Source: Chloranthus sessilifolius (Eukaryota; Streptophyta; Magnoliopsida; Chloranthales; Chloranthaceae). From it: DNA of 64,000 nt. The position numbers and the translations under genes were made by a program. The notes beneath the pieces were generated by a model, which saw only the letters and a program-made list of their open reading frames with translations, did no database searches and had not been told where the DNA came from. The stretch is taken from NCBI GenBank assembly GCA_021018995.1, contig CM037597.1:35590936-35654935 (forward strand), read 5' to 3'. Of the stretch, positions 11,785 through 57,425 are shown piece after piece. The number at the start of each line of letters is the position of its first letter. The stretch's first letter is position 1.

Positions 11785-11966
11785 GAATATATAGGCCCTA
11801 TCTTAGTGATGACCTGCTGAATCGGTCGTCACTCATGTGTTAACCTAGAGTTGGCAGTCGACTCTAGCTCTCAACAATAGTAAGTACGAACCCTCGTATA
11901 AGGTAATCGCTACGGTTTCACTAATAGATATGACCATACAATCAATTGTAAATCCTTACGATTATT
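11785..11966 (-). promoter_or_regulatory. Putative internal promoter of element A extra ORF
   Basis: A TATA-like box (CCTATATATTC, minus) at 11785-11795 lies about 300 bp before the probable start of the extra ORF. Upstream at 11943-11966 is AATCGTAAGGATTTACAATT, close to the inverted-repeat motif of this element's LTR. The weakest of the four cases: only one clear motif copy is visible. Confidence 0.4.
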
Positions 11967-12009
11967 CGCTATAATATACACTAGGAGTTATATTATGATC
12001 TATCATTTT

Positions 12010-13594
12010 TCAATGATTTGGCTTGTAGGGTAATACCTAAACGAAAAATAAATAATTCTACATATTTTACAATGGGTGCTTCGGATGTGTCGGTAGCTCG
12101 ACGATCCATGAGATTTTTATATTTTATTTTGGGGAGCCGATGTATCTCCCAAGAATACTTGTCCTTTACGATTGCTGAGTGGCTGTGTGGGCAATTGGCC
12201 ACTCTCACTTTTCTCCACTTGGGAAGCTAGCTGACCTATTTGGCTCAACAGCATCGTAGTGGACTGAGTGTGTGAATTGAGCACTTAAGAGAATTGAGCA
12301 AGCTGATGTAGATCTTTTGAATGCTTATGCAACTGTTGCTGCAAATCCTGAAGGATTTGAACAACTATGGCATCAGGTGCATTGCTCTGTGGTCCAAATT
12401 GGGGTTACGCAGCAAGAATTTGAGGTCTTTGGTGGAAAACTTGGGTCGGGGGAAATCGGGGTTGCGCAACTAATGGTGCTAGTTGTGCTCCTCCTGTGGA
12501 ACCATAGTTAAATCTAGGATGATTCTTCCATGTTGGATTATACATGTTTCCATAATCTCCCCTTTGAAAAACCATTACTTGCTCATTTTACACTAACTCC
12601 TGGTATGATGGCGCAACTAGGTTTTCATAATAAGCCAGAGTCTGGCAATTAGAATAGTTTGCCAAAGGTCTGTCCAGAGTGCTCGATTTGGCAGCTAATA
12701 GAGTTGTGATCTTTTATTTAAGAGACAAAACCTTCACACTCATATCATCCTCTTTCTTTACTTTATCTTTAATGATATCGTAAAGTCCACCCCTCGCGAG
12801 CGAGGTGTAATGAGTGATATCGGGATCAGATCTAAGAAGGGCATGTTTCTGCTTTAAGTTATCGACCAGTTTCTCGAATAAGTTCTAGGACTGTTGGCCA
12901 TTTTGAGTCATAAAGGCTCCTCCGCTTACGACATCAACTGTAGATTGGTTAGTCTTAGTTAATCATGGATATAAACTCTATGCTATCGACCAGTTCGACG
13001 CATCATCATGAGGGCACTTCCTCAGTAAGTCCTTCATGCGCTGTCAGCTCTCATGAAACAATTCTCCAGGCTGTTGCCTGAAATCTTGAATTGCTTGCTG
13101 AATCTGGTTAGTTCTACCAATTGGGAAGTATTCATTTAAGAATTTGGATTGCAGTTCTTCCCAAGCGGTTATACTCTTGGCAAGCAGTGAAGTTAGCCAT
13201 GCTTTCGCTCTATCCTTGAGAGAGAAAGGGAACAACCTTAACTTAACTGATTCCTCAGTAGATGCTGACAATTGTAACATTTACAGAGTTCTATAAAATC
13301 CCTTAAATGTTGATAGGGATCCTCTTTATCAAGCCCATGAAAAGTAGGTGCAGGTTGAAGTGTATTGAGCTTGATTTCAAAATTTTGTCCGACTCCAACC
13401 TTTGGTAAAACTATACAGGAGGGTGCAGTCAGACCAACAGGGCTGAAATGTGCTTGGATTAAAAGATCGTCAGCCATCGTTAAGGATTCTCTTATGGGAA
13501 TTCGGTTCGCTGTTAAATTACACAGGAGAGTCCTTTCAACTTCTGGATCACACTCGAAAAATCTAGACTTCGAGATCGAGTGTGATGCATACAA
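12010..13594 (-). pseudogene. gag: Element A gag
   Basis: Athila-like capsid/nucleocapsid precursor, minus strand, start at 13594. The retrotransposon gag core reads through PTFHGLDKEDPYQHLRDF (about 13345) into LRLFPFSLKDRAKAWL (about 13235-13190) and FLNEYFPIGRTNQIQQAI (about 13135-13080). Frameshifts lie near 13260 and 13040, with further stops beyond 12900. The distal part is Q/P-rich and fades out near 12010. No zinc knuckle or protease could be read after it, unlike element B. The protein would package element RNA in cytoplasmic particles. Confidence 0.85.
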
Positions 13595-13839
13595 AAAGAA
13601 AAACTATGTTTTTGTGTTTTTAATTTTATTTAATTTTTATTCTAGAAAGCAAGGAGAGAAACAAATATGAGCCTCTAGCTTCTCTGATCAGGGGAAGTTG
13701 AAACCTTGAGTCGTTACTCCGAATAAACCTGCAAAAGATTAAGAAGTTATCATAGAAAATTAAAAATATAAAGACATATAAAAAGATAAGGATAAATACT
13801 TATTTTCTTAAACTCATATAAACATAAAATAAAACGCTA
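13595..13839 (-). other. Element A 5' leader
   Basis: Untranslated region between PBS and gag start. A/T-rich; no feature recognised. Confidence 0.6.
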
Positions 13840-13857: not shown

Positions 13858-13864
13858 AAAAACA

Positions 13865-15251: not shown

Positions 15252-17358
15252 GGCACTCTCCAACTCAATTGTCTGAGTCCTCGCTCGACTAGCAAGTCCA
15301 CAGTCACCTCCTGAAGATGATGATCAGCAAGATCGGATGGAATCTCCTGGATCTCCTGACGAGCTAGGGCGCGCTTTGTCTCCAAACGCGACTGCTCCAA
15401 CTCGTACACCTACATACAAGCACGAAACTAAGATAAAAAAAGCGCATATATGACGAAGTGAAGATCAAGAGTAATGAAGATATACCAGCTCAGCACGCTC
15501 CTGAAGAAGGCGCTTGACCATCACAGCAGTCATCGGATTAGTAGGTGGCGCTGGAGGATCCTCGGACATAGACGGCTACACCAGAAATAAACAAGCACAT
15601 CAGATGATACTACGACTAAAAAATCAAAAATAAAATGTAACTATGCCAACTTAACATACCTGAGTAGGAACATGAGTAGACTCCAGAGGAGGATCTTCGG
15701 GAGCAGAGTCAGGAACCGCATGCACAATCAAAACAAACGAACACAAAACATGTTAAATAAAACCAGCTAATGAAACAAAATAAACCAACAAACTAAAACA
15801 CATTATACCTAACTCTCCAAGTGCAAGGAGGCAGCTGTAGCCTTCCTCATCTGGAGATCCTCAGCAACCTGACGCTAAAAATATATGACATAACATTAGT
15901 AAACCACTAAGCAAAACAAAGCATAACTAATAAAACAACAGAAACTCACCCAGTGCTCTAGCACAGCCTGAAGCTAGGCTATCAACGAATCCTCCCGACT
16001 AGACGAGGCAACCGAAGACGAATCAGATGTTGGAGCAGACGCACCAGCAGCAGATAACTCTTCCCTCTGCAAGTATGACACATAATCAACACGTCAGAGA
16101 AAAAACATAGAACCATAACACTAGGATCAAACCCAAAACACTTACTAGTCGATCAATCTTTAAACATAGGTTGGCCTCTACCTCCCGGCCAGCCTGCTGC
16201 TGACCTCAAAGCAGCTCAATCATACCCTCCTAACTAGAGACCTCACCCTCCCTCTCGGTCTAACAAACGAAAGGGGAACGAAATAGAACAATCATGTTAG
16301 ATTGACTAAAAAATGAAATGAATAAGTCTAAAACAAACAGACCAACTCACCGGAGATCGCCGAGTCTCAGCCAACTGGGCCCTCAACTCATCCTCCTCTA
16401 CCCTAGATTGGAAGACAGAGTCTATCAAGGAGCGCAACATCTCCTCATCGGGCCTAAGAGTACAGCCCATCTGGGCATTCATCACTCAGTGGAAGCCAGA
16501 ACCAAGAGGGCCCTGCTCCAAAGTGGCCAGGCTCTCCCTCAACGCCGAGGCAGACTCAGGACTACCGACCGTGAAATAGCCACTCCCATGAAAAGGGTGT
16601 GTGAAGAGCCGACCACTGCCAAGCTCTTGGAACCACCTCGTAAACTCCTGGGCGTCCACCTCATAGCATGCCCTCATCACCCTAGTCCCCCAGGCTTTAA
16701 AATCATTAATCTGAGCCCTCATCCTCGACGCAAAATCTTGACCAGCGGGACCAGTAATCTTCTTCACCACTCGGTGGTGAATCTCCGATGGGACTCCCTG
16801 AGGGAGCCTCAGCTACCTGGCTGCCCGAGATTGGTGGATGCACTCCACCCTCTTGAAGCAATGGGCCCAGATGTCCACATCGAAGAAGGGTCAGCTAGAC
16901 TGAATCACTGGCTGCTCGGCATCCTCCCTGACCGTAAAGGGCCTCCGGATGACTTGTAATCGAAAATAAATAAAACAACCCGTCAATGATAGCCTAAAAC
17001 CTAAAACCTAAACACTTTAACAATATAAACAACACGTACCTGCCTCGCGTGCATGTCCTCAAAGAGACCTCGCACAGTTTGTAAATTCGAAGACTGATGG
17101 CGGCGCCTCAATGCCCTCCGCCATACATGCATCAGCGGGAATATGAAAGTGATCTCTGCTGGGACCTGCATGCATAAGAAGGCGAAGTGATCATAGGCCT
17201 AAAACTAAACACACACACGTCAAAATAATTACTACGATAAAAGACTAGACGACTAAAACACTATAACGAATAACAATTGACCAAAACTCACCTGAAGGAA
17301 GGGAAGGAACCCTCCGATCATCTTACACCCCTCCTTCTACTATACAACTGCTCATAAA
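15252..17358 (-). pseudogene. PMD gene, middle exons with introns
   Basis: Split gene of cellular type on the minus strand. Exons judged from GT..AG junctions and coding frame: 17358-17292, 17165-17040, 16952-16351, 16259-16146, 16076-15950, 15874-15809, about 15715-15660, 15575-15486 and 15409-15252, separated by introns of roughly 70-126 bp. The first two continue the plant mobile domain (EQLYSRRRG, then TFIFPLMHVWRRALRRRHQ). The large exon holds FDVDIWAHCFKR and PAGQDFASRMRAQINDFKAW, as in the C-terminal half of PMD proteins. Later exons are acidic, S/A-rich or coiled-coil-like. In-frame stops (near 16895 and 16805) and one lost acceptor (near 15716) show decay. PMD proteins occur as nuclear silencing factors (MAIN/MAIL) and inside transposons, including extra ORFs of Tat elements. 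Its antisense position after Tat1 pol fits the latter. Confidence 0.7.
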
Positions 17359-19755
17359 TGTGACAACCCAAATTTTGGCACCCCGAAACCTGTGCCATCA
17401 GCATAACCCTCGAAGCCATGCCCCATATATTTGCTCGGAACATTTGGTATATCCACACAACTAGAAAGCAAAAGCATACACATGAGAACAAATTCTGAAT
17501 TTAATCTCCAATTCTATACAATAAAGCTAAAACCTGTAGCCCAAAAGAAAGTTCTAATCTCATGCCACTGCATGAGCAAAAGAACCAACCCGAACCATCG
17601 GTGACAAAACAAGAGTCACCCAGATGGTTTGCCAAAAGAATGCCTTACAAAAATTACATTTGTCTCAAAATAAGGCTGGACATAGCAAGCCGTACAACCA
17701 CTCTCACAAAACAATCAAAGTACACAGAGGGTCTTCTAAAAGAACTCCTCAGGAGGGGGCTCCGACTCTTCCCCGGGCATGTAATCAAAGTCCTTCGGGT
17801 CTACTTCTCCCGAAGTAGCAGCAGCAGCTAACACTGGACCTATGACGTATAGTCAAAAGAGTGAGATACATCATAGCTCAATAGGGAATTAACTGAATGA
17901 ACATATAAGTCTATCTTACTCACATATATTCCATGACATAGCAAAACATGATTTATCAATAAAAGATAGCTGGAAAACAGTTTATGTTAATGAAAGCATG
18001 AATTGAATGCACATCTGTTACACTACACATTTTTGCTTGTTTACTGAAAGCATGAAATAAATGATTGGTCTCAAAAAAACTTAAATCAAATAACTTAAAT
18101 AATCCCCGAGCAATATAGCATCGAGCCCCGATTGAATAACCACCTTCGTCGTCCTATCAGACTATTTTTCTTCATGTAATACGACCCAAGTCCCTTTCTC
18201 ATAGGCGACGGGGCACAAAAACTCACGTACATCCCTCGGATGTTATACTGGCATACGGATATCCTGCCGTACCGGTCATGGATATCTTGCCAAGTCAGTC
18301 GCGGGTATACCGCCGCGTCGGTGGGGTATTCTACGAACCTTAAATCAATTGTGCAAAAGTACTTATAGTTTTCACCGTGTAATCGTGCTAAATATAGTAT
18401 TTAAGGTTTGTTTAAATTTCACTCAAATAACTTCACATCACTCGGATGGTCACATTTCCCATACACCCCTAGGATGTAACCTGCTCATATGCATCACCCA
18501 AATGCCCGCATCACATTCACACCTCTCGGGATGTCACATACTCATAAGCATACTTGTTTCCTTACTTAGTGTTCCCACACACACACACACTTCAATTCCA
18601 CATGAAAAACTACTTGTCAAAAAAACACAAGTACATCTCTATGCTCTCAACACATGCCTACACATTTTCATATCACTACATACATGCTATCATAATCAAA
18701 GTACATGTTCAAAGTATTCCCTACCTCCCATGCTTCAACCCAAAACATCAAGGTCCAAGGTAGCTCCCCATGCTCATATCTGAGTGTTCATACCTAAAGT
18801 ACACAATGTCATTCACAAAGCATATAAAATGATGCAAAAAGGAAAGGTACAAGGCCCTCCCAAAGCTCCATGGTCCAAAACATAACCCACAAGAAACTGT
18901 CAAAATCGATTAATCAATCCCAATGTCGATTAATCGAAATTTCAAAATCGATTAATCGATTTGGAATCGATTAATCGGTTTTTCCAAACTCCTCATTTTC
19001 CAGTCACTGGAAGTACCCAGTCGATTAATCGATTCCAAATTGATTAATCAAAAATTAAAAATCGATTAATCGAATTAAATTTGATTAATTAGTTTTGTGC
19101 TACAGTTTCCAGATTTGCCTTCTGATCAAAATCGATTAATCGATTTTGACAGAAAAATAGCCCTCTTTGGTTGTACATCTTACTTTCACCCATTTTTCTC
19201 AATCTTTCTTCTCTTCCCTCTTTTAATCTAACATTTATACATTAAATTAAAGCTCAAACTTTACACACATCATAAATTACTAAAGCCTTACCTTGAATTG
19301 GATCGTATGCATGATTCAATGGCTTAGATCGAAAGCTAGGGTTATTAGCTTTGATTTCACGAATTCACACACACTGCCTTCGAGATTAACATCCCACGTA
19401 TGGCTTCAATCCGAAATTTCACACAAAATCCTTAGCATTTACTCCCTCCTTCGTCCTCACTCTCTCTCTCTCTCTTCATAAATCCCTAACCACCAACCAA
19501 AAATCAAAGAGAAATAACTTCTCTTAGCCCTTAGACTATTTAACCCAATTCATTCCTTGGTGTAAAACACTTACACCCATAATAGGTGTATATAACCTTA
19601 TCAAAATATCTAACACCACACACTCACGTGTACTCTCACCTTGAGCCTAATCCAACCTAAGTCATCAAGTTGACTTTCACTTGATCGCACAAGTGACCAA
19701 ATGGGCATGCATCCCGAGGACACTATTCTAAGCCCAAGATTTCAGGGATGTTACA
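17359..19755 (-). repeat. Chromovirus 3' LTR
   Basis: 2.4-kb LTR, minus strand TGTAACATCCC ... TTGTCACA, near-identical along most of its length to 59665-62047. A TATA-like ATTTTATATG lies at 18821-18830. An AT/CG-rich motif array lies upstream of it (18904-19146). Confidence 0.93.
18904..19146 (-). promoter_or_regulatory. TCGATTAATCGA motif array in chromovirus 3' LTR
   Basis: At least nine copies or near-copies of the palindrome TCGATTAATCGA (starts near 18906, 18926, 18949, 18967, 19021, 19040, 19062, 19081 and 19132). The array lies in U3, about 75 bp upstream of a TATA-like box. The paired array in the 5' LTR is at 61208-61432. A third array precedes the extra ORF (21901-22127). Confidence 0.8.
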
Positions 19756-20430: not shown

Positions 20431-21610
20431 TTACATAGTCTGATGTAGCAGAAAATCAACCTGGTGGTTCATCTGTTGGTTGTTTACCTCCATCATGGCC
20501 AGAACATCGTCGATGGTAGCTGTGGTCCGAGGTGCACGCCGACAGTGAGGTGGCACAAGAGTAGTAGGAACAGACTGCATAGGAGCAGGAGTTGTTACAA
20601 GAGGTTGCTCTGCAGGCTGTATAGGGGCAAGAGGTTGCTCTGCTGCTGGGTGGTCCTGATGTGGTGGAACATCAAAAATAGGGGCAGGTGTTAGTCCCTC
20701 TGGTGGTACTACTTCAAAAGATTATAGGTTCGCTTCCAGGAAGCGATGGAGTAAAGTTTGGCATGTTCAGTAGCCCTTGGCTCAATAACGTACTCTACTG
20801 TAGTGGAGTAGCACTCTATCATGCTAGAAATGAGACGAGCATATGGCATACGCTCCTTAGGTCTTAACGGTCCTTTCATCATCTTACCCTGGATGTAAAT
20901 CATGCCCTCTAACACCAGCTTAGTAGTGTCGAACCAACGGCCTCTATATGCCACGTACAACGCTTGTTGCACCCCCTCCACCCTCTCAGTGTCATGGCAC
21001 ATGGGGTACAGGTTGCACTTAATGATGGTGTCGAGCATCCACAAATGAGGAGGTAAGTCAACCCTCTAAATGGACTTTCCGGACCCTTTAATTCCCCTAG
21101 TCATCTCGCCTTTAATTTCTTCAAAATCTATGGGCTGAGCAAATGGGGGTAAAAGGTTGGTTTCAGGTTCGTACACCAATAACACTCCAAGGATCCATGA
21201 ATGTGGCGTAGGGTAAAAAGATATTTATGACCATCAATTTCGGTCACAACGGTGTCGGTCTCCTTCCCCTTTTTCAGATTTTGGTAAAATAATCTAACCA
21301 ACCTAGGGTAATAATAGTCATGTAAAGGCTTCAAGAGGTTACCGAGGCCCGCATCAATGAGGTATTTTCGGGCCCATTTTGTCTTGCCCGGAACCTCCGG
21401 ATCGTCAAAAAGAGCTTCATCTGTGGTGTATTCATCTTCAAAATCCTTCGCAGCCCATCATTCATTTGGTTGTGCTAAATGGCCTGGTTGAGGTGGTGGT
21501 GACGATTGGCGTGACAACGCCTCCGTCAAATACGATGACGAAGATGAAAGTGAAGGTGATGGCGGTACTTGCGCTGTGCTCGCACGCCATACGGGAAATT
21601 TAGAAGCCAT
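20431..21610 (-). pseudogene. Chromovirus extra ORF ('putative plant transposon protein' type)
   Basis: ORF of about 390 codons in the sense direction of the chromovirus, between chromodomain and 3' LTR. Start ATG at 21610 (MASKFPVW), then a S/P-rich N-terminus. The conserved domain runs about 21400-20720, with YYPRLVRLFYQNL (near 21310) and MPYARLISSMIE (near 20850-20815), colinear with the extra ORFs of A, B and C. A P-rich linker (20700-20530) and a short end (TIDDVLAMMEVNNQQMNHQV) lead to TAA at 20431. It is much shorter than its homologues because the long C-terminal coiled-coil part is missing. An early stop (21458) and frameshifts near 21190, 21060 and 20709 make it inactive. A GT..AG pair could form a leader intron (about 21724 to 21617). 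Function unknown. Confidence 0.78.
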
Positions 21611-21885
21611 GAGCTTCAAAGTTTTTCGGGTTTTAGGCAGCATTCTAGGGTTTTATACTATAAATTTAAACCTAGGGCTTTAAAATACTCAAAATGCAAT
21701 GAAAATTGCTAGATTTAGGGCTTACCGTGCACAATCGATCCGAATGTATAGGGTTTTGGTTCGATCTTGATCCCCAAAGCCTTCAAACACTCACTATTGT
21801 CACCAGCCAAGGGGAGAAGAAAGGCGCCCAAAATATAAAAAAATAGATGCAAATTTGAATGGGGGTAATTTCGCCAAAACTGCTA

Positions 21886-22127
21886 CTTATAAGGGAAAAA
21901 TCGATTAATCGATTAATCGGTTTTTACTATTCAAACCCAGCTGCCCGAAATCGATTAATCGGTTTCAAAAATTGATTAGTCAATTTTCAAAATCGATTAA
22001 TCAAATTTAATTCGATTAATCGAATTTGACTTCTAAAATTTTTTCCAGGTCCCTCAGCTCACTGATGTGAGCCAGTCGTTCAATCAAAAAAATTTCGTTT
22101 AATCAAAAATAAAAATTGATTAATCAG
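21886..22127 (-). promoter_or_regulatory. Putative internal promoter of the chromovirus extra ORF
   Basis: A cluster of TCGATTAATCGA copies (21901, 21909, 21951, 21992, 22012) plus degenerate ones (21972, 22115) matches the LTR array, including a shared flanking GGTTTTT and TTTTGACAGAAA. Directly downstream in sense direction is TTATAAGTAG (21886-21893), and the extra ORF starts about 275 bp further. Nothing in pol or gag contains this motif. Confidence 0.65.
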
Positions 22128-22467
22128 TTTTGACAGAAATTCTAAACTTTTTTTTTTTTTTTTTTTCTTCATTATTTTCCTCCTTTTTGTCAAGTTCCCT
22201 ATGGCTTTTAAGCTAGTCACTTACTGACTTTCCTTTTTGATTGACACAGCCTATTGTTACACCTATAAATCTATAATCAAGACTTGGCATCCATTAATTT
22301 CATGATATATACACATTTGGGGTAAACATGCTAGATTTCACAAAAGACCAATTTAGAAGCAAAGATTTTCTTTTCATTTCCTTAATGATGTTGGCATATA
22401 CCTGCGGCCTTTCGCTTACATACACATGTTAATTTTACAAAATAAATGCAATACTACAAGCATGTTC
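22128..22467 (-). other. Spacer between chromovirus pol and internal motif array
   Basis: No gene. Contains an oligo-T run of 19 on the + strand (22148-22166), i.e. oligo-A in element sense, next to the motif array. Confidence 0.6.
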
Positions 22468-24149: not shown

Positions 24150-24202
<53 letters not shown>

Positions 24203-24466
24203 AGCCCCACATAGAGCCGGCCATAGTAGAGACCGCTTACGAGCGGGTTGATCGGGTGTCTAACATCTTCTCGATTCATAACCGAAGCCCCTACCCAAGA
24301 GCCTTTGACATAGACCGGATTCAGAGTCATATTTTTGGCACTTTGGTACTTATAAAAATGATCTAGGTTTTTCGGGACACCAAAAGCTCCGGGTGGAGAC
24401 TCTAAATATTTTATTTAGCGAGCGCATTGTCGCGACGAGATCGCCAAAAAATTCCATGATTGCACA
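23014..24466 (+). repeat. Tat2 5' LTR
   Basis: Starts TGTAGACACCCAAATTTGG and ends GATTGCACA; pairs with 32688-34131. Contains TCTATAAATAGAG (about 23680-23695), a good TATA box, and a (TA)n run at 24155-24198. Confidence 0.94.
24155..24198. repeat. (TA)n microsatellite
   Basis: About 22 TA units inside the Tat2 5' LTR. The matching place in the 3' LTR (33815-33860) is shorter and interrupted. Confidence 0.95.
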
Positions 24467-30720: not shown

Positions 30721-30732
30721 GCCGACAATCCT

Positions 30733-39465: not shown

Positions 39466-42186
39466 CTATTTATAGGCCTCATCTGGCCAATCATAGAGGT
39501 CAGCCAGGTTTTTCAGCTCATCCTTAGATAAGGGAGCTTTTCCTTTAGATTTAGCCTTTGGTTGCGGCTTCTTTACTGCCTCCTCAGACTGGGCAGCGAG
39601 TTGTTTTCCTTTCTTAACAGAAACAGTTGAAGGAGCAGATCTTTTTGTAGTAACTTTCTTCTTGGGGGGAGCCCTTTTTGGTTTTGGAGGGGTAGGTTGA
39701 GTAGGGGGAGGCTCCTGGGCTGGAGGAGGGTGCACATCCACAGGGGGGGTGGGGGGAGGTTGAGTTGTAGGGGGGGGACAGGATTGAGTGGCAGGAGGTG
39801 CAGGAGGAGGTGCGGTGGCAAGAGGGGTAGGTTGGAATGGCTGAGAGGTAAGGGAAGTAACCTTTTTCTCTAAAATGTCAATCTGTTGGGCAGCATAGAG
39901 CAGGTTGGCATTAGAGAGTTCTTTGGTGGCCTTGAGTATCTCCTGAGCATTGGCTAATTTTTTCTTGAGAAGCTCAGAATTCTTCTTCTCATATTTGGCA
40001 ATGAGACTCTCAACAGCTGCCACTTGTTTTGCTGACTCATAACGAGTCAGGATTTCAGACCACCCTTGAGAGATATCACGGAGTTGAATTCGGGTTCCAA
40101 TTCAATGTTGGCAATCCTCTCCTCATAAGGGGCCTCTATGGAAGCTCGAAGTGCAGCCATACCTCTCAGGACATCCTTGTGGATGTAAGGGTTGTCCCTC
40201 ATGGCATACAACAGGGTGAGATAAGGAGGTATGTATATGGATTGTCTAAGGACAATGGGCAAGGACAAGGGTGTAGTGGATGAAGAGGAGGGGGTGGAAA
40301 GAACCAGAGCATCCCAGGGATCAGTTTGGGTAGAGGCATCCTGGAAAACAGGTGGGGGTGGTGAAGGGTAGAGGGGATTCAGCTACTGCAAAAGCTTGTA
40401 AATCTAGGGCAGAGGGTAAAGTGACCTGTGGTGATGAAAGTATGGGGAGAGCTGGTGTGGCTATTTCCTCAGGCTGGGCAGCAGCATGGTGTGGGGTAAG
40501 TAGAGGTGAAGTAGGAGGGGATATGTGAGGGGGTTGAGGAGCAGAAAAGGATGGGGTAAGGGTGGATTCAATTGATTGGAGACATGAGCTCATGAGGGTC
40601 TGGTTGTCGATGTTGATGGTTAATTGGGACTGAATGGTTTGGAGGAGGGATAGAATTTGAGTGAGGGTGTCAGGCATGGTGGGGGTAGAAGGGGCCGGTG
40701 GTTGGACATGATGGAAGGGGGAAGAGGGTGCATGGTTAAAATGATGAGTGGGGCATGGGGAGTCAGGAAGTGGAGTGTACTCATTACAAACATCCTCCAT
40801 AATTGAGGTCATGAGGGTCGTGAACCCAGTCGTGGTGAACAGGTCCACGCCCTGTGGATGCAGAGGGGTTGGGGATGGGGGAAAATTAGAAATGGGTTGG
40901 GTAATGTGGGGAGAAGAAGTGGTAGGGGTAGGCTCGGAGAATGTGGGAGGTTCCAGTATGTCAGGTTGGAAAACCTGAGAGGTGGTTGAAGTGAAGACAG
41001 GTTCTGAAGTGGGTGGAGAGAGGTCTGTTTGAAGAGGGATTAATACAAACGGAAAAGGCAAAGTAGGTGGAGGGGTAGGTAATGGGACAGGGATGGTAGG
41101 TGGAGGGGTGGATAAGGGTATCTCTGCAGGAGTCTCTGCTGCCACGGTAGTGGGTGCCTTCTCAGCCGCCTCCCTTCCAACTGGCTGACTCTTCTTAATC
41201 AAGGTGAGGCTAGTTGACCATTCCCGCTTTCCATACAATTTAAAAGTCAGCTTCTCCATTGGTTCATTTTGCTTGATCACATATTTTCAAGTCTTGAGCA
41301 GACATGTGATGAGTCTGCAAAAAGGCAGACCTCCACCTTTAGCAAAAGCTTGCCTCTTCAGCACCTTGTCATTAATGTCCACCATTGTTTCAAAAATCAG
41401 CTTAGGTGCCTTCACAAATTGCCCCTTTGAACAGAAGTGTAGTGCATCCACTAAAGGGGCCCTTCTCTCTTGCAAATGGCCAGAGACAGACATTTTTCCT
41501 CAGAATGGTATCAATGAGTCTAAGGGTAGAATGGAGGTCTCTTCTCATCAAGGATTCACCGAAGCCCACGATTCCATTAGTAAATTGTTTAGCCATTTCT
41601 CGAAATGTAGCCCCTGTAGGTTCTCCCTCAGCTTTGGTGGAGTCAAATTGATATGGGACTCCCAAAGCCATCCCAATATCTCTGCAGTCGACAGTCAGCT
41701 GCCAGTCATCAATCGAGATTTCTAGTATATCCTTAGCCCCAAGAACCACTTTCTATGTCAGGTTTTGGTACCACAATTTGACCAACCTGGGGTAGACATT
41801 TTCCTTTAAGGGTGAAAGCAAGGGTAGTAGACCTTCTTTCTTCAAATATTTTAACGTCCCCTGGCACTCCCCAATGTTAGCAAAATATGCCAGATCAAAA
41901 TCCATCTCAGGAACAAGACTTAATTTTCCACAAACTCATTAGGGGTAGTTAACCCTGCTGGTAGCTCTACTGGAGGAGCAGCTCTCGCTAAGGTTTCTTC
42001 CACTATAGGCTCCTGAATCACAACAACTTTGGCTTTCTTAGCTTTAGGAGCCTTTTTGGGTGACATCTGAGTGAGTTTCCTCTTGACAGGTGGTTTGCCA
42101 GCTGGCTTCGACCTCGCTGAGGATTTGGGGGTGGAAGCAGTTGCTCTCTGGCGTATGTTTGCTAGAGTTTCCTCCGGCTCATTCAT
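39466..42186 (-). pseudogene. Element B extra ORF ('putative plant transposon protein' type)
   Basis: Roughly 900-codon ORF with few breaks. ATG at 42186; a basic N-terminus with NLS-like KKAPKAKKAKVV. The conserved domain (about 41880-41290) includes LRLIDTILRKNVC and LPFCRLITCLL. A long P/T/S-rich region (41280-40330) follows. A second conserved segment has LLYAMRDNPYIHKDVLRG (40200-40150), shared with element C. A coiled-coil-prone helix (40020-39880) and a P/K-rich end (KPKRAPPKKKV) finish at DWPDEAYK, stop 39466. Frameshifts near 41750, 41450, 41285, 40320 and 40040. It takes the place of pol downstream of the protease. Probably nuclear from its basic stretches; activity unknown. Confidence 0.8.
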
Positions 42187-42492: not shown

Positions 42493-42750
42493 TGACCTAT
42501 CGACAGGTATATAAGGGGTGAAATACGATTCCGATAGGATGAACTAGAAAGCGTTGATAGGTTCATGTGTCCCGTCGAAAGTATGGCAGACAAAACCTTA
42601 AAAGGGGATGATTCAATAGGATCCCAATAGGTGGAACTATCCTTTCGATCAGTTTAACTGGCAGCTGAATCTTCATTTCGATAGGTCCCCGATTGGTATC
42701 TAGAACCTATCGAAATCTCTATTTTGCTCTTTTTAACCGATCGAAAAGTT
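42493..42750 (-). promoter_or_regulatory. Putative internal promoter of element B extra ORF
   Basis: TATA box (CCTTATATACC, minus) at 42507-42516, about 320 bp before the ATG. Around and upstream of it are about ten copies of the LTR motif: CCTATCGACAGG (42496), CGATAGGA (42532), TTGATAGGTTC (42554), TCGAAAG, CAATAGG (twice), TTTCGATC, TTTCGATAGGT (42676), ACCTATCGAAA (42705) and GATCGAAAAG (42739). No such cluster occurs in gag-pro. Confidence 0.75.
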
Positions 42751-45885: not shown

Positions 45886-48008
45886 TGTTGGAGTGTTTGC
45901 CTTCCCTCAAATGAGGGTCTAAAATCATCAATAAACTAGGCAGAACACACTCACACAGACTTGCAACTAATCAGGGTCTGTTGTAGCAAGTTTTACAAAA
46001 AATGGTGAATAAGGGAATGTCCACAGGGAGGTTAGTTTTAAAATATGATAAATCTCCAGATCAGTATTAGATCTGGCACCCTAACTAATGCTGCGTTAGC
46101 TAAAAGACAGTGGAGAGGTTTAAAATGGATTGTCACTTAAGCTAAGCTAAAATTAAACATAGACTAACTGTGATTGAGTTTAGGATCTTAGATCTTGCAG
46201 GGGAAGGAGGTAAAAAGCAGAAAATGGAGAAGAGTAGCTTGGAGATTGGTTTTCACTGAAATCAGATTCAATTAATTATGCTACAGAGGTTCAAAGCACA
46301 CAATTCCCTCAACTGGCTATAAGCACAGGTGCAGGGTATAAATTCCACTTCAATTTGCAGGATCCACCTAGTCTTAAGGCTATGATCTATCCACTTTAAT
46401 GGTCATAAACCATCCTATAGACTTTATCGAATCCATGGATTGCAGCTGACGAATCCAATTGGAGCCTGAGCTTGGATTCATCTTAAGGTTATGATCTGTC
46501 CACTTTAATGGTCACAGACCATCCTAGGGATCTCCTTCAAAGCTAGAGCATCAATTAGAACAATTAAAATTTCGACAGATGCTGCAACTCCCAGGTCATA
46601 GACTCAAGGAATCACAGGAGTATCAGATCCAGGGAGATAGGGTGGTATCCAAGAGGCCTACCAATTAAGTGGGTGAGCTAATCTACAGACTCCTCTACAC
46701 AAATCCGATCGATCACCACATGGAACCAAAGGAAATTTAGATCTAATTAAAGTATTAAAAATAGTATTAACATTTCAATCAACATCACTCTTACAATGGA
46801 AATACTCTCAGATCTGTAGTCTGTGCAGCTAGGAACCTACAATAGCACTCTTAACCTTACCCAATTACAGATCTAACTTCTCTCCTCGCTACTCCAAGGG
46901 AATTAGTCAACCATGGTTGGGCTAAAGAAGGAAAATAGAAATTCTCTGCAAGCTCTAATCTCTAGAATTTACCTCAGATATCGATCTCCCCCAATTGCAA
47001 TTGCGGGTCTCTATATATAGTTTTCTCCTCTATTTTTCTCGCCAAAAATCCCTTCTAGAAGGTCCTCAGAGTTTGTTAGAGTTATGTTAGAGCACGTGGG
47101 TCGGTTAGGGTTTCTTAGGGCATCTTCTGAAATCGTCATGCCGATCACCAAGTGCCTCAGGTTGCGTGCAGCAGGTCACCAACTCACAACGTGTGCACAG
47201 CTGAATCTTTGAGAAGTTCTGCACACAATTTTGACAGGTTTAGGAAGCTTTCGAAAAGTTCAAATAGAGCATTTTGGTCCTTTGTTAGGTTCTGAGATCT
47301 GTTCGATAGGTTCCAATAGGATGAGCCTTCGCTTAGAGTTTCAGCATTCTCAGCCCTTGGCCTGGAGTATTCGACAAGTTGGAGGGGCTCTTCGACAGGT
47401 TGGAAAACCATTTCGACAAGTTCCGCTCTGCATGCTATCCTTTCGATAGGGTTGCTCTCACTCCTATCGAAAAGCTCAAGTACCCTTTGATAGGTTCTCT
47501 TCTAGTGTCTTCATATCGATAGGTTCCCTTAACGCCTCAGGCAGGCTTTCGATAGGATGGTTTCTTTCTCTCTTTCAGCTGCTCGATAGGTTCTTGGATC
47601 CTATCGAACTTCTCTATCCACACGAATCCATCCTTCTTCTGCCTTCAGATCCTATTGAAACCTCTTCAACTACACGAATTCTCCCTTTCTTTACTTTCAG
47701 CCCCTATCGAAGTCTTTAGGTGACCAATCGATAGGATGTTTTCAACCTGTTTTCACTTCCTTCGCCTTGCCCTACTGTAGCCACGCACTCCAAGGGTCTA
47801 GTGATGTGCTACCCTCTGGTGTGCTGTTGCTGGGTTTGTCCTGTGCTGAAAGATAGCCCCTTTTGGGCATTCTTGAGTAGTTTTCTGCATTAATGTCCTC
47901 TTTTATTATTGTCTACAAAATGCACTTGACAGAGACTTATTAGTGTGCTCACAGGTCTATCAATGGTCAGGTTAAAGGGTGAAAAGTGACATTTTTCACC
48001 ATTTAATA
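45886..48008 (-). repeat. Element B 5' LTR
   Basis: Partner of 35562-37702. TATA box at 47011-47020; TCGATAGGTT array at 47228-47742. Terminal dinucleotide on the minus strand is TA instead of TG (G to A at 48007), consistent with deamination. Confidence 0.95.
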
Positions 48009-48910: not shown

Positions 48911-51367
48911 TGTTGAAAATTAATTAAAAACCAAAAATAGAATAGAACAGGGGATGAATCAGCACCACTCGGAAATCCTAGACCTGCAAGATACAGGGTC
49001 CTTTGTAGCAAGTTTTGATAAATAAGAGTTTGTCCCACAGGGAAAGGTGATCTAAGGCTCCAAGGGAGCCGTCTCTAGTAGTCCCTCCAGATCTGTCTAC
49101 AGATCTGGCAATCCTAAAAGGAGGGGAGTTTGAGGTCACTTATTCTAAGTATTCTAATAACTAAATTACAGAAAGGATTGAGAGGATGGATGGAGTGTGG
49201 AAAATAATTATAAAAAGGTGAGAAATATGTTTTTGAGCCAAGATCAGAGGAATTCTTGTAACTCAGATTTAGATCTGGTGTTATAGAAATCCTGTCCAGA
49301 GGCTACATTATCACCTCTGAGGAGAAAGGATCCAACCCATCTCTACTGCCATGACTCCACCCTTAAGGCTATAACCTGTCCACTTACATGGTCACAGACT
49401 ATCCCATAGGGGAGCCACTATCCAGGGATGGGTCAGAACATAACTATTAAATCATTGCAGGCACTATTTCAACTAGGCTACCAGCTTAAGAATCCATAGG
49501 GAACCTTAACCTGTAAAGTTCCATGTGTGGGGCTAAAGCTGGAAAACCATGATAGCCCAAACACATAGAACCAGCAAGCGGTTGAGTACAACCTTCGATC
49601 CAGCTGTCCATTGCTTGAGAGAGGCTACAATGGTCCAGTCACCAGCCTACAATCTCTATAACCAGATCAGATCCAGCATCTGATGGCAGATCTATACAAA
49701 TATGGGGGAGTCTGCTTCTATACAATCCCTCACCAGGCTTCTACATGCTCAGGTGAAAAGAAGAAGGATCCACCTTGGATCGGTGGATCAGAATCACCCT
49801 AAGGCTATAATCTGTCCACTTAAATGGTCACAGACTATCCCAGAGTTTATCCTCCTCACGGAGCCCAAGACAAAATAAGATTATCGCTGCTACCACCATG
49901 TTCACCAGGCTACCAGCTCAAGCTCCCATGGGGATTTCAGATCTAGTAGGTCCTGTGGTGGGGCTAAGGCAGGAAGACCATGATAGCCCAGACACACAGG
50001 TTACTTGGATATGAGTGGCCCTTAAAATCAGTCCTCCATTGCCTAGGCAATGGCGGATCACAAGGCAGCAGCCTTGCACAGAGCATCTCACAAATTAACA
50101 GCAATCCCACAAAGTATAAATCCTATTACAAAACTTCCATTAATCTAACTCAAATACATATACAAAGTCATAGCCAGCAATTGCTGGACTATGGAGAGAA
50201 GAAAGGAGAAAGAAAAAGAAAAAAAACTACTTACTGCTAAAAAGAAAAGAGAAAAGAAAAGCGATCTGAGGTAGGTTCCTAGATACCTAAACCTAAGCTA
50301 GGCCTGGGTATATATAGCAGTGGGGTGGCGGCGCATTAGGGTTAGGAAATCCTAATTTTAATGATGCCACATGGCCTTCTATTGATCCTTGGATGCCTCG
50401 AGGCATGTGCACAGAGATTTGAGCGTGGGAATGCGTGCCCTAATCATTGGAAGTTTTCAGAATGCCCTCTGCTACAGAGATGGAAGTTTGGGTTCAGAGC
50501 CTCGCTAGGTAGCTTTAGTTTCCTAGACATCTCACGTGGTAGCTCAGTGCTCTTCGCTAGGATGATTTGACACTGAAGCTTTAGCCGTCGAGAGGTTGCC
50601 TTGGTTTACTCTTCAGGCAATCACGCGGTAGAGAGTTGAGCTCTCGCTGAGTTGGAATTTGTGAGGTTGAGTAGAAAACGTAGTCTCAAACGTCGCGAGG
50701 TTGCAATTCAAGCAGTCGCGCGGTAGATTAGTCTTCGCTGGGCAGCAGCGCGAGAACTGCGCGTGCTCTTTTCTTTACTTGGACTTCATGAGTTACCTCG
50801 CGAGGTTCTTTTGAGTTCTTACTGCGCGAGGTTCTTTGTCTCACTCAATCTTCGCGAGATGGGCTTTGCCTTCGCCAGGATTCTTTCTTTCTTGAATGGC
50901 GCACAAAATGTGCGAGGCGTTCTTCTTCTGAGAATTGTACCCCGCGGTGATTGCGCGACAGCTGTGCGAGAAATCTTTTGAAGCTCTCTCTCCTCAGCTA
51001 TCTTAAGCGAACTTCACGAGATTGAGAGAAGTCTGCCTTGAACTGTGCGACATTGAGCGCTGTGTTCTACCCTTGATCTTCACGAGAGTTGTGTGGAGTT
51101 GAGTTTCTGAAGCTCCCCAGTTATTCATCTGCGCGAGAGGTTGCTTGTAAAGCCTTGGGAAGCTCAGCTGGTCTGCGCGAGGCTTCAAGGTGCATTCTTG
51201 CTGAGGGGCATCTGGTGCCAAAGCAGGCTCCATAACAGGATTCTTGGCCTTATTTCACTCCTGATTATTTCCTGAACAAAACACTTAAGACGAGTTTATT
51301 AAGTGGCTAAGGGTCTAATCAAAGGTTAAGTTAAGGGGTAAAAAGTGGTACTTTTCAGGTCTTAACA
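48911..51367 (-). repeat. Element C 3' LTR
   Basis: 2.46 kb, minus strand TGTTAAGACCTG ... AATTTTCAACA. Its 49777-51367 part is an inverted match to element D (62309-64000). TATA box TATATATA at 50309-50316. Internal short duplication: the CCACTTAMATGGTCACAGAC-type unit near 49380 and 49815. Confidence 0.92.
50588..51190 (-). promoter_or_regulatory. CGCGAG motif array in element C LTR
   Basis: At least fifteen copies of CGCGAG or one-base variants (for example TCGCGAGGTT at 50693, CTCGCGAGGTTCTT at 50798, TGCGCGAGGTT at 50823, TTCGCGAGAT at 50851, TGCGCGAGAGGTT at 51130). Upstream of the LTR TATA box. The LTR of element D has the same (62555-63195), and a smaller array precedes the extra ORF (57230-57425). 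Confidence 0.85.
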
Positions 51368-53246: not shown

Positions 53247-56200
53247 TTAAAATTTATCCCAGCCCATCTTCCTTGCATGTTCTTGAAGGATAGCCTCTTC
53301 TTCTTTCTTCTTTCTTTCCCTCTCGGCCTTCCTCTGCTCTGGAGTTTTGGGTATGGTAGGAGCCCGGACTCTCATTTTTCTCTTCTTTGGCTCAGGAGGG
53401 ATTTTCGAAGATTGTACAGTGGGTGGCTCAGGGGGTTTGGTGGGGGATTTCCCTTTGAGGCCCGTACCTTTGGAGGCTTGCCCAGGCTGAGGCTGAGGTG
53501 GAATAGGAGATGATTGGGTTGGTGGAGGCGCAGGAGGGGGAACGGGAGATTTGGCGGGAGCTGGCATTTGAGACAGGAGAGGACCTTTCCCTTTTTCCGC
53601 TGGAGGCACAGCAGGGCGCTTTCCTTGCGCAGACTTGCTTGGTGATGGTGCCTCCTCAGACTGGGCAGATGGTTCTTTGCCAATTTTCAAAGAGCGAGAT
53701 GGGGGAGTGGTCTTCTTAGCAGTAACTTTTCATCTCTGAGGATAGGATTGGGCGGCAGGGGCATCTGAAGGGGTAGCCATAGAAGGTCGAGCACTAGGAT
53801 CCGTAGGTGGTGCCTCCTTAGACTCAGAATCAGACGGAAAGAGCTCAGTAGGGTCCAAACCTAGGGCAGCAGCAGCCTGTCTGCGTTCTTCTTTGGAGAG
53901 GAGGAGCCCATGGGGATCATCCTGAGTGGAAGCTCGGGTGACCTTTGGAGGTGGGGATGGAGGGGCTGGCCATTTGCCTTTTTGGGCTGCAGTGGCTCTC
54001 TTAGAAGTGGGCTTTTTCTGTGAAGGGGTGCATTTCCTTTTTATAGCAAGAGAGGAAATAGGGGGGGCACTGATGTAGGAGCAAGAGCTACCGTAGGGGT
54101 CACAGCAGGAGCAACAGGTGTTGTGGGTACTGCAGAAGGAACGGCAGCAGGCATTGGAGGAGGAACAGGAGGAGCTGCCAGAGCGGGGGCTGGGGGAGTG
54201 GGGGGAACAGACTGTGTAGGGGTTGGTATAGGGGTTGTGGAAGAAGATGGGCCTTGAGGTGTGGAAGAAGATGGGGCCTCAGGGGGAGCGGTGGCGATGG
54301 GGGTGGCTTGGATAGGTTGGGACAGCAGGAAAGCAACTCTCTGCTCCAAGATTTCTATTTTCTTATTGGCCCACAAGAGATTGGTATCCGCAAGCTCCTT
54401 ACTGAGACGGGTGATCCCCTGAGCATTGTTCAATTTCTTCTCCAATAACCGGTTATTCTTCTTCACCCTCTCAGCATTGGCCTTTTCCATGTCAGCAGTT
54501 ACTTTGTAGTAGGTTGCTGCAACCTTGTTCGCATTTGATGTCTCCAGAATGGCCTCCCATCCTTTTGAAATATCGCACAACTGCTCGTTGTGAGCAAGCT
54601 TCTGCAGTAAGGGGTATTCAATGGCTTGGCGGAGTTGGGCCATGCCATTGAGAACATCCTTCTTGATATAAGGATTGTCCCTCATGGCATGGAGGAGGGT
54701 GAAGTAGGGAGGGGGGTAGTAGGAGTGTTTGGGCAACATAGGGAGCAATGAAGTGGAAGGAGGAGAGGTTGCTGGAGCCTGGGGGGGGGAAGTGGGGGTT
54801 GGAGGAATGGGTTGGGTGGTCTAGGTGGAATGGTCAATGAATTAAGGAAGGGGGGGGAGAAGAGGGGGAATGGAAGGTAGGGGTGGGTAATGAAATGAAG
54901 GGAGGGCAGCTGATGGGGGTGGTTCAGGGGACGAGAAGAAGGGTATGGTTAAGGGTTGAAATGGAAGGGAGGGGTGCAAATAGGGGGTGGAGTGAGATAG
55001 GTGGATGGGAATGGAATGGGGTCTTTCTGGGTAGCAGTGTTGGTGAAGTGAGGGGGAGGAAGTATTAGAGGAGGGAGGATAGGGAGAGAGGGAAAAGAGG
55101 GGGCAGGTATGGTATCAGGGAGGGGGAAGGATGGAGGTGAGTCAATGGGGGTAGGGGCCGTGGGACCAGGGGAGGCAGAGGTGGAAGGGGGTTGTGTTGG
55201 GATTGGTGGGTTTGTCAATGTGTGTAGGGTGGATTGGAGGGTGTTTATGTCAGTTTACATTTTGGCTTGGGTCTCTGTGGTGTTGGATAGTTGGATTTAG
55301 AGGTCATGGATAAGGGAAAAGATATGAGTAAGGGAATCAGAGGTTGGATGAGGGGGGGTAGGAGGGTAAGAAGGACTAGGTTGCAAAGGGGAAGTGGGGG
55401 CATGATGGAAAGTGGTAGGGGGGAATGGGGGGGGGGGTCGGGTGAATGATGTGGTGAAGGGAGAGGAGACTCAGGGAGAGGGATGTCGTGGGTGGGCAAG
55501 GTATCAAGCAAACTGGTCATGAAGGCTTGATACCCAGAGGTGGTGGCTAGGTTGAAGTCCAGGTCAGGGAGAGGTGGGCCTAAGGTTGGGTCACTAAGGG
55601 GTGTGGTTGTGGGAAGGGCAGGGGTAGTGTGAGAGGTTTTCTTTTTGAGGTAGGATATCAAGGGAGGGCTGTCAGGGTGAGGAGCAGGGGTTATGGGAGA
55701 GATTAGGGATGTTGATTCTGGTGGGGTGGGTGAAGGTGGAGTGGTGCCTTGGGGTCCAGCACTTTCTACCCAGGTTCGGATAATGGTTGGAGGGGGAAGG
55801 GAGAAAGGAGAGGAAAAAGGAGAAGTGAAAGATGGAATGGGTGAAGAGGGGAGGGGAGAGGCCAGAGTAGTTGGTGGAGGAATTGTTGCAGAAGCAGAGG
55901 TGACAGAAGCTCGCACCACCTTCTTTGGGGCAAGGGTTGTTGCCTTCTTTTTGGGAGCAGGGGTGGCCATTGCCACAGCAGCTTCCTCTCTCTGCTCGGG
56001 GACCTCTTGAGCTTCAGTCGTCTTCTTCTTCTTCTGGGGATCCATTAAGTTTCTACTGATCCCCCATTGTCTTTTAGCAAATGTGGTGGGAGTGTGGTCA
56101 GCAGATAACTCCCCCACAGGTATTTTGTATCCTCCCCTCAGGAGTAGTCTGGTGATGAGTCTTCCATAGGGGAGAGTGTGGCTCTTCTTTTGCAGCCCTA

Positions 56201-56930
56201 ACTTCACCATTGTATCTTTCATGGCCTCGAAGATCAGCCAGGCAGCATTGAATCCATGGCCCAGAGAGAAGGAATACTGAGCGTCAGCAATTGGTGTCCT
56301 CCTTTCTTGCTGATGGCTAGAGCAATAGATGTTCTTCCTCAAAACTTTATCAATGAATAGTAGTTTGGGCTCCAAATCTCTTCTTCGGATGGAGTCCCCT
56401 GTGGCCTTCAAGCCTCTGGTAATGGCATGGGCAATTGTGTCAATGGGGGCACTCACAGGGGCACCATAACCGCACTTGGGATCAAATCTGGTAGGGATGC
56501 CCAAGACTTCAGCGATCAGCTCCGGGTTAAACAGCATCTCAAAATTGTCAACTAATGCAAGGAGGCTTGGCTGCCCTTTTGTGTCAGGTTTGAGCCTAAG
56601 GTGCTGGTAGAAGAGTTGCACTAACCTAGGGTTGGCTAGGGCAGGAATCATTTGCAGCAAGGGGAGCAGACCAGCCTTGCGCAAGAACTCTATTGCAGGT
56701 GCTGACAATGGCTCAGATTCAAAGAAGGAGATATCAAAAATGGCTTCAGGCTCTAAGGGAATGGAAAGGAGGAGCTCAGAAGGTGTAGAGTAATCAGATG
56801 TTAGTGCAGCCCACTCTGGTACCACCTCCTTCCCTTTTTGCAGAGCCGTAGAGGACTTGGCTTTCTTAGGTGAAGGCTCCACAGTGGCCTTGTCCCTGGC
56901 TCTCTTCACAGGTGCGCTTTTAGGAGCCAT
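53247..56930 (-). pseudogene. Element C extra ORF ('putative plant transposon protein' type)
   Basis: Best-preserved extra ORF, about 1,200 codons. ATG at 56930; the first 561 codons are open. N-terminus is basic (KRARDKATVEPSPKKAK, NLS-like). Conserved domain at about residues 70-300: NPRLVQLFYQHL, AEVLGIPTRFDP, LLFIDKVLRKNIYC, QERRTPIADAQYSF, LPYGRLITRLLLRGGYKIP. A P/T/S-rich linker follows. After a frameshift near 55245 there is more P-rich sequence and then, at 54748, LLHAMRDNPYIKKDVLNG and a coiled-coil-like helix (KANAERVKKNNRLLEKKL). A second P-rich stretch and a basic end (PPEPKKRKMRVRAPTIPK) reach the stop at 53247. Breaks at about 55245, 54750, 54041 and 53690. Resembles a modular nuclear protein; activity unknown. 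Alternative: a structural or packaging helper for the gag-only elements. Confidence 0.82.
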
Positions 56931-57217
56931 CCCAATTTCCTTGGTGAGTGTGAAGTTACAGATTTGAAAGGAAAAACCAGGAGCTGAGTCTAACCCTAAA
57001 AGTTAGGGTTCTATTTAATGGAACGCGCAAAGGATCTTCAGAGCTCTAAACAGGGGGCAACTAATAAGGGGAGCTTGAAGAACAAAAATCTTGAAGTTTG
57101 AACTGAACAGTGATCTGGGGATAGGGTGTGAAGGGAGAGAGGTGGAGAGGAGTGGCAGCTAGGGTTTTGCTGGTAAGAGAGGGAAGAGAAAGCAGTAAGG
57201 AAAAAGTAGTGCGGGGT

Positions 57218-57425
57218 GGGATTTAAATATCGCGAAGCTCGACGCGCTTTAGAAATGGCCGTTCGCTGGTTGGGAATGAATGGGTCGCGAGATTAAATGG
57301 TCCTTGAAACTGCGCGATGCAGCCCACCCAGTTCTTTGAAACTTGCGACAGCACAACAAAGTAATTCCTTATGAACTGCGCGAGATGGGACCAAACTCAT
57401 TGTGCATAACCTCGCGATGGCTTAA
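57218..57425 (-). promoter_or_regulatory. Putative internal promoter of element C extra ORF
   Basis: TATA-like ATATTTAAAT (minus) at 57221-57230, 290 bp before the ATG. Immediately upstream are CGCGA copies at 57231, 57286, 57313, 57343 (GCGA), 57379 (GCGCGAGATG) and 57412. The same motif fills this element's LTR array. Confidence 0.7.

Follow-up and report, generated by a model that had tools for sequence, protein, structure and literature searches.

The 64-kb window analysed here (contig C14, positions 35590936-35654935, of the Chloranthus sessilifolius genome) is, by self-comparison and its Pfam pieces, a nest of plant long terminal repeat (LTR) retrotransposons. Four of these elements, a chromovirus and those named A, B and C, carry homologous extra open reading frames (ORFs). 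The extra ORF is located between the coding region and the 3' LTR and has its own TATA-like box ahead of it. Just upstream of this box, in the chromovirus, B and C, stands an array of a short motif that is also clustered in the LTRs of the same element and that differs between the families. The extra ORF is probably the gene of a self-encoded regulator of its element, a reading to which a rough probability of 0.6 is given.

Motif arrays in the LTR and ahead of the extra ORF

The 6-mer enrichment was run blind on the LTRs only, and the 6-mers were then counted in the pre-ORF regions against 1000 dinucleotide shuffles. The top LTR 6-mers are AATCGA/CGATTA in the chromovirus, TATCGA/CGATAG in B and CGCGAG/GCGCGA in C and, separately, in D, an LTR akin to that of C. 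In their own pre-ORF region the top five 6-mers reach 38 matches versus 3.2 in shuffled sequence (chromovirus), 22 versus 2.0 (B) and 9 versus 0.6 (C), each with p=0.001, the floor of 1000 shuffles. Foreign pairings of motif and pre-ORF region remain at background, bar the chromovirus set in C (4 versus 0.9, p=0.031). The D set gives 9 versus 1.0 in the pre-ORF region of C, and D and C use the same motif. The family specificity of the motifs, claimed by a first-pass annotation of this window, is borne out in these three families.

When the 64 kb are scanned in 400-bp windows, the highest motif density outside the LTRs falls in the pre-ORF region in all three families (chromovirus, B and C). 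Discovery in the reverse sense, begun in the pre-ORF region, recovers the LTRs of the same element (plus D for C) in three of the four elements. Position weight matrices (PWMs), trained on the LTRs and seeded with the motifs found there, were used at a score >=9. They give 8 matches in the 300 bp of chromovirus pre-ORF sequence versus 3 in 58,914 bp elsewhere, 6 versus 13 in 59,440 bp for B and 4 versus 6 in 60,416 bp for C/D, where elsewhere is the window outside the own LTRs and the position of the 300-bp stretches was chosen with the clusters already in view. The motifs are nearly absent from coding sequence, in line with the first annotation: a single match is present in 5,271 bp of chromovirus gag/pol pieces and another in 2,586 bp of the B gag-protease region, and none in 5,635 bp of C (ORF and 3' region). 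The LTRs of E, a control, are dominated by TATATA, and their set peaks outside them at an unrelated TA repeat near 58001. The annotation had placed the module of array, TATA box and ORF in four elements; blind 6-mers and PWMs recover it in the chromovirus, B and C and not in A. With the copies F, G and H described below, paired LTR and pre-ORF arrays are present in 5 of 7 extra-ORF elements (chromovirus, B, C, H and F; not A and G).

The TATA-like box precedes the ATG by 299 bp in C (57229 to 56930), by 327 bp in B (42513 to 42186) and by 249 or 282 bp in the chromovirus (21892 to 21643 or 21610, ATGs read by eye). The interval first given was 275-325 bp. Within the LTR, the array is upstream of the LTR TATA in B (TATATAT 36690) and C (TATATAT 50316), and for these two elements the annotated order stands.

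The arrays are not copied segments, since the LTR and the pre-ORF region have no significant similarity once the motifs are masked. In blastn comparisons of masked sequence nothing better than E 0.29 is obtained in the three window families (in C even unmasked), and the masked comparison in copy H gives no LTR/pre-ORF similarity. A duplication of U3 was considered as the source of the pre-ORF array and rejected, the similarity being gone after masking.

Full or near dyad symmetry marks the PWMs, which are TCGATTAATCGA for the chromovirus, CCTWTCGAWAGG for B and CCTCGCGAGG for C/D. The site spacing falls near multiples of 10.5 bp in the chromovirus (p 0.014 in the LTR and 0.0024 ahead of the ORF) and in B (p 0.0014 and 0.05). 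In a scan of periods from 6 to 16 the best value is 10.25 for the chromovirus, with 10.5 almost equal, and 10.5 for B. Eight of the nine genome loci with enough sites peak at 10.25-10.5 and one at 7.0. For 88 pooled spacings between exact sites (8-120 bp kept) the score is 0.62 at 10.5 and 0.57 at 7.0, the latter also being high because 21 is a multiple of both. The chromovirus steps could come from repeat units of ~20 bp; B, with its varied steps, is the cleaner case of phasing.

The observed/expected ratio of CpG is 0.72-2.24 in six arrays. It drops to 0.07 in the B gag-protease region, to 0.14 in the C ORF and to 0.24-0.28 in the B and C LTRs outside the arrays; CpG lost from the remainder of these two elements is thus kept in the arrays. 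In the chromovirus the ratio is 2.17-2.24 in the arrays versus 0.51-0.94. The 16 top CpG windows listed comprise several arrays, the A pre-ORF stretch and further windows, some of them in E and in the chromovirus LTR outside its array; none of the 16 is a B array.

The extra ORF, its product and its further copies

A tblastn search with the C sequence 55248-57002 returns B (41899-41122, E 2e-26), the chromovirus (21373-20901, E 3e-16) and A (11141-10530, E 4e-5), all on the minus strand, which confirms the homology of the four ORFs proposed at first. Against Pfam PF20167 (Transposase_32), the whole C ORF scores E 2.1e-10 and 41.2 bits and its domain E 5.9e-11 and 43.0 bits, just under the curated cut-off of 45. 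The chromovirus pieces match weakly (E 0.0024 and 0.0073); the B and A pieces on their own have no PF20167 match and were placed by similarity to C. These matches would group the extra ORF with the Transposase_32 family of Athila type. The gag/protease/pol pieces and the extra ORF share one strand in the chromovirus and B, and the ORF is on the 3' LTR side; this position test covers these two elements, C being truncated and no coding part having been recognised in A. At 20434-22957, the Athila-type (PF20167-like) ORF is on the 3' side of a chromovirus-type element with an integrase SH3 domain. The ORF was probably exchanged between lineages, because the chromovirus and the copies H, G and F carry an ORF of Athila type. 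None was found in the scanned pieces of E.

Basic stretches resembling nuclear localisation signals are seen by eye near the ORF start in C and B. The extra proteins of B and C have a common C-terminal region (53% and 45% identity), which AlphaFold2 (AF2) models as a single helix of 113 residues, with a mean predicted local distance difference test (pLDDT) of 86.1 and values >=90 in 86 of 140 residues. Homologues of the extra protein were found neither in the protein database nor in viral contigs (searched by protein) nor in genome contigs, and the PDB sequence search gave one match alone, with E 0.65.

The window's own genome (2,168,743,587 bases in 32 contigs) was searched for further copies. 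The exact 12-mer TCGATTAATCGA occurs 241,617 times and the reversed pattern 55 times. Twelve 10-kb pieces were examined, all from the head of this match list and from one contig, and they are biased towards the chromovirus motif because they were picked from its matches. Three of the twelve contain an extra-ORF match (copies H, F and G), and in H and F the module recurs, the pre-ORF counts of both having p at the floor of 300 shuffles (0.003). Copy H (contig C1; LTRs 54145-56218 and 62893-64961) has arrays in both LTRs and, at 60389-60865, a pre-ORF array ahead of TATA box and ORF, where its LTR 6-mers count 116 versus 11.6 shuffled. Copy F (LTRs 232195-234330 and 244508-246636) is a diverged chromovirus, with an integrase piece 65% identical to that of the chromovirus and a different motif, CTCGCGCGAG. 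This motif is enriched in the F 5' LTR (17 versus 2.2 shuffled, p 0.001) and, to a lesser degree, in the 3' LTR, which is decayed (5 versus 0.9, p 0.011), and it is clustered again ahead of the TATA box of the F ORF at 242375-242493 (17 versus 0.9). F is the cleanest independent confirmation of the module, because it was not selected for its own motif. The scope is one genome with two further module-bearing copies, and not every extra-ORF element has the module. Several other arrays (L024, L025 and L026) have no extra ORF inside their 10-kb pieces; these could be solo LTRs or relatives that are non-autonomous.

Motif and protein diverge together only coarsely, as far as the sequences suggest. 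In tblastx comparisons of the ORFs, the pairs that share a motif have identities of 204/244 (H-G), 117/201 (chromovirus-H) and 99/162 (chromovirus-G), and the LTRs of these three elements still align. The values against F are 73/170 (chromovirus), 57/161 (H) and 43/122 (G); thus ORFs that are 58-84% identical use one motif, and F, at 35-43% to them, uses another. Other pairs give 87/248 (B-C), 54/145 (F-C) and 43/113 (chromovirus-C). Short alignments of 34-60 residues are not comparable with these (chromovirus-B 20/38, chromovirus-A 19/35, G-B 20/39, G-C 19/37, G-A 16/34, F-B 18/44, F-A 24/60), and H-B and H-A yield no tblastx alignment. The difference of F fits the co-diversification first proposed, whereas motif similarity between families is not significant and A is out of line with it. 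F and C, with similar CGCG-type motifs despite 37% ORF identity, speak against it. The F set cross-matches the C promoter (7 versus 0.9, p 0.003) and the G upstream region (6 versus 1.3, p 0.010), and the H and G sets weakly cross-match the C pre-ORF region (4 versus 1.0, p 0.043). Plain descent of whole elements predicts the same pattern of motif and ORF and would fit as well. One ancestral motif for all families was rejected (PWM similarity p 0.14, 0.28 and 0.90).

A self-encoded regulator and its rivals

The module is best read, by analogy, as a self-encoded regulator that would work like foamy-virus Tas or VANC. The VANC proteins of the Mutator-like VANDAL elements bind family-specific motif clusters in non-coding DNA, and related proteins have different motifs (YAGTATTAY for VANC21, AGTTGTCC/AGTTGTAC for VANC6), according to the accessible text of PMC5735166. 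The likeness lies in an element-encoded protein and in short family-specific motifs clustered in non-coding DNA. On the other hand, VANC proteins carry DUF1985/DUF287 (PMC5735166, same text) and belong to DNA transposons, whereas the present ORF matches PF20167 and belongs to LTR retrotransposons. The motifs differ from those of VANC, being near-palindromic with CpG and tying an internal promoter to the LTR. Binding and demethylation by VANC were shown by experiment, whereas for the extra protein they are predicted from sequence. Family-specific clusters in the element's own non-coding DNA are seen in the chromovirus, B, C, H and F, in G in the LTRs only, and not in A. In the C domain and the pieces of the chromovirus, B and A, DUF1985 has no Pfam match at E up to 10, with HMMER filters that drop most weak matches. 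A meeting report (PMC12859917, accessible part) refers to studies, still unpublished, of the structure of VANC and of its target DNA.

In foamy viruses the gene of Tas precedes the 3' LTR, and its product binds both the LTR and an internal promoter (PMC4929722, accessible text). The points in common would be a regulator gene before the 3' LTR, an internal promoter and action on both promoters. Foamy viruses are vertebrate retroviruses likened by layout, whereas here the promoters share a clear repeated motif that differs between families. The maize proteins Spm TnpA and MuDR MURA are reported to reduce the methylation of the elements that encode them; they belong to DNA transposons without LTR, and no second promoter is described in the accessible text (PMC10398659). 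As to plant retrotransposons, PF20167 is reported for the 3' sense ORF of sunflower Athila, predicted to be nuclear and related to Athila ORF1 (PMC11728184). For TRP28, the antisense ORF of Retand, DNA binding is predicted and a regulatory role suggested; in about half of the TRP28 elements, tandem repeats separate pol from the 3' LTR (PMC11963269). The accessible texts of both papers report no motif shared by LTR and ORF promoter. In contrast to TRP28, the extra ORF is in the sense of its element; in contrast to the Athila case, chromoviruses too carry here an Athila-type ORF at the 3' end. Extra ORFs of plant elements are described as heterogeneous and of unknown function in the text available (e.g. 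PMC7264820, PMC12844716, PMC6317226). Among the openly licensed papers listed by the literature searches, whose listings were read, no report was found of a motif common to a plant LTR and its own extra-ORF promoter.

The foamy-virus-like layout and the VANC-like motif clusters are the reason for which the ORF is taken as the gene of a self-addressed DNA-binding regulator. The palindromes, the CpG kept in the arrays, the predicted long helix and, for two families, the helical site spacing would fit a sequence-specific and probably dimeric protein. It would enter the nucleus by means of the basic stretches, dimerise via the long C-terminal helix and bind the palindromes cooperatively, the sites being in helical phase in two families. 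Once bound, the regulator would activate or un-silence the LTR, or both, and would feed back on its own internal promoter, where the site adjoining the TATA box in B (42501/42513) and C (57232/57229) could permit self-limitation. Since the motifs differ from family to family, each element would act chiefly on itself. That the extra protein binds DNA and counters silencing is inferred from these features. The wider proposal is more tentative and falls somewhat short of an even chance. In it, at least two lineages (chromovirus and Athila-like) would carry one module, in which an Athila-type nuclear long-helix protein with its own promoter reads family-specific CpG palindromes there and in the LTR. 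A positive feedback would thereby act against CG-methylation silencing, with protein and operator diverging together and nested families nearly orthogonal.

A host factor that binds both promoters would account for co-regulation and leave the extra protein another job (e.g. env-like or in the particle), which we regard as rather unlikely. Plant LTRs carry host factor sites, an A/T-rich palindrome like TCGATTAATCGA could presumably suit a candidate host factor of homeodomain type, and nothing in the sequence ties the extra protein to the motif. ONSEN and heat shock factors are mentioned in the accessible part of PMC12859917. This explanation has, however, to face at least four different motifs ahead of homologous ORFs (chromovirus/H, B, C and F) and 241,617 copies of one 12-mer that would need to titrate the factor. 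E, in which no such ORF was found, is also without a comparable LTR motif, as one control. It is improbable that the arrays are functionless tandem repeats that expanded and were carried between the LTR and the internal part of the element through recombination or gene conversion: the similarity is confined to the motifs, the B sites are in both orientations with varied spacers, CpG is retained in the arrays alone, and these stand ahead of the extra-ORF TATA box in 5 of 7 elements from two lineages. What speaks for such expansions is the repeat-like character of the arrays, the dominant 19-21 bp step of the chromovirus motif, the gain and loss of arrays between copies (G) and the tandem repeats common between pol and the 3' LTR of plant elements (PMC11963269, PMC6317226, text available).

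That the arrays are targets of host silencing, and not of a self-encoded activator, is very improbable. CpG-rich repeats are natural methylation targets, the F 3' LTR sites are read as CpG-decayed forms, and RNA-directed DNA methylation and VANC are reported on the same non-coding regions (PMC10398659, accessible text). When the two LTRs of one element are compared, the chromovirus array CpGs decay like the others (7/14 kept versus 27/60 outside, p 0.77), whereas those of B are kept more often (13/22 versus 7/27, p 0.023). Silencing would moreover leave the recurrence ahead of the extra ORF and the family specificity unexplained.

Several results weigh against the self-encoded regulator. No DNA-binding domain or fold was recognised in the extra protein. 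The AF2 model of its Transposase_32 domain is poor (mean pLDDT 51.6, 8 alignment rows), and with this model none of 112 Foldseek matches reaches E 0.001. The heptad pattern of the helix is not significant (p 0.08 in C, 0.10 in B), and therefore the term coiled coil is a reading of a long lone helix; a cruder periodicity test gives p 0.08 (B), 0.10 (C), 0.27 (chromovirus) and 0.002 (A). The C sites have no helical phasing (p 0.31 and 0.58). Between the C and D LTRs, sites are not significantly better conserved than their array neighbours (163/192 versus 891/1113, p 0.14; in a second count 139/170 versus 658/845, p 0.31). In the chromovirus it is doubtful whether the LTR array precedes a TATA box: it lies 3' of TATAAAT 19239, the sole strict TATA-pattern match, and 5' of a weak TATATG alone (by eye), so that the first-pass order is not settled there. 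Copy G, with one LTR from 18961 to at least 20999 and the other at 27583-29631, bears arrays in the LTRs and none ahead of the ORF (1 versus 3.2); integrase-like sequence lies directly ahead of its ORF, and the array is read as lost by deletion. A gives no shared array either. Its LTR 6-mers count 3 in the pre-ORF region versus 2.0 shuffled (p=0.34), LTR-trained motifs from three seeds, all very degenerate, have 0 matches there, and discovery from the pre-ORF region fails to return to the A LTRs. The motif annotated for A, AATCGTA/TACGATT, was therefore rejected; a CpG-rich stretch (11881-12180) and four TCGTA half-sites, a count reached in 8 of 1269 windows, are suggestive only.

With a self-encoded regulator, the DNA target of the extra protein could be proposed from the element itself, each protein being predicted to bind the palindrome of its own family. 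If true, self-addressed transactivation or anti-silencing would not be limited to DNA transposons, plant retrotransposons would have reached a two-promoter circuit of foamy-virus type, and nature would supply sets of related proteins that differ in the DNA sequence they bind. It could also account for the excess of TCGATTAATCGA over its reversed pattern (241,617 versus 55) in 2.17 Gb.

Elements of the window and minor observations

The chromovirus, A, B and C are taken to run on the minus strand and E on the plus strand, D being inverted with respect to C (Table 1). The chromovirus integrase matches SH3_Tf2-1 at E 5e-22; a chromodomain-like stretch with a stop inside was read by eye from the DNA, and Pfam gives no chromodomain match. 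E (23014-34131) contains reverse transcriptase-like and RVT_3 (RNase H-like) pieces, possibly of the Tat lineage. A scripted search found no target-site duplications.

Table 1. Positions of the elements and of their parts in the window
Feature	Position	Strand	Remarks
Chromovirus 5' LTR	59662..62047	-	LTR pair; motif array ~61209-61430 (exact and PWM sites)
Chromovirus 3' LTR	17356..19755	-	LTR pair; TCGATTAATCGA array ~18906-19143
Chromovirus pre-ORF array	21898..22127	-	8 palindromic sites
Chromovirus extra-ORF TATA-like box TTATAAG	21886..21892	-	further TATA-like matches at 22311 and 21657
Chromovirus extra ORF	20434..21643	-	in broken pieces; weak PF20167 match; start read by eye
RVP	57551-58072	-	Pfam piece, assigned to chromovirus
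Reverse transcriptase (RT)	47999-48529	-	Pfam piece, assigned to chromovirus
RNase H	35185-35646	-	Pfam piece, assigned to chromovirus
Integrase SH3 domain	22517-22957	-	Pfam piece, assigned to chromovirus
B 5' LTR	45886..48006	-	LTR pair; array ~47245-47735
B 3' LTR	35562..37700	-	array ~36896-37428, AACCTATCGAA-type sites (PWM CCTWTCGAWAGG)
B pre-ORF array	42494..42748	-	6 sites, both orientations
B extra-ORF TATA-like box TATATA	42508..42513	-	adjoins site centred at 42501
B extra ORF	39469..42186	-	contains stops and frame changes; helix region of the C terminus at 39844-40382
B gag	44745-45086	-	Pfam piece
B protease, weak match	42996-44153	-	Pfam piece
C LTR (single)	49776..51367	-	array ~50498-51184, CTCGCG-type sites
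C pre-ORF array	57226..57421	-	4 sites
C extra-ORF TATA-like box TATTTAAA	57222..57229	-	adjoins site centred at 57232
C extra ORF, ATG to first stop	55248..56930	-	PF20167 match under curated cut-off
C extra protein, C-terminal conserved region	54320..54739	-	different frame; AF2 gives one 113-residue helix
D LTR	62309..64000	+	kin of C LTR, inverted; CTCGCG-type array ~62552-63248; internal part beyond window
A extra ORF	9526..11249	-	broken; no array in common with A LTR demonstrable
A LTR pair	5132-6583 / 13866-15249	-	self-comparison
E LTR pair	23014-24466 / 32688-34131	+	self-comparison

Motif patterns were also met in viral contigs, at 1 and 5 loci, which were examined for motif positions and GC. 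AACCTATCGA is repeated in the IMG/VR contigs L003, L004 and L005, with 21-bp steps in L004 and L005; these repeats are probably unrelated, having been retrieved by the search pattern itself. The A LTR contains a ATTGACGAC-type repeat at 5440-5840, with CGTCAA and GACGAC as the strongest 6-mers, downstream of TATAAAT at 5901. In the A U3 (6200-6380), three degenerate inverted repeats AAATCGTAATTTACGATT have, by eye, a CpG-decayed look. Element C has no gag/pol in the window and seems cut off 5' of the extra ORF near 57.4-57.5 kb, as judged from the chromovirus RVP at 57551. At 57430-57500, the presumed junction of the truncated C with the chromovirus, there is a GTGAATTCACTCACCCCCC-type direct repeat.

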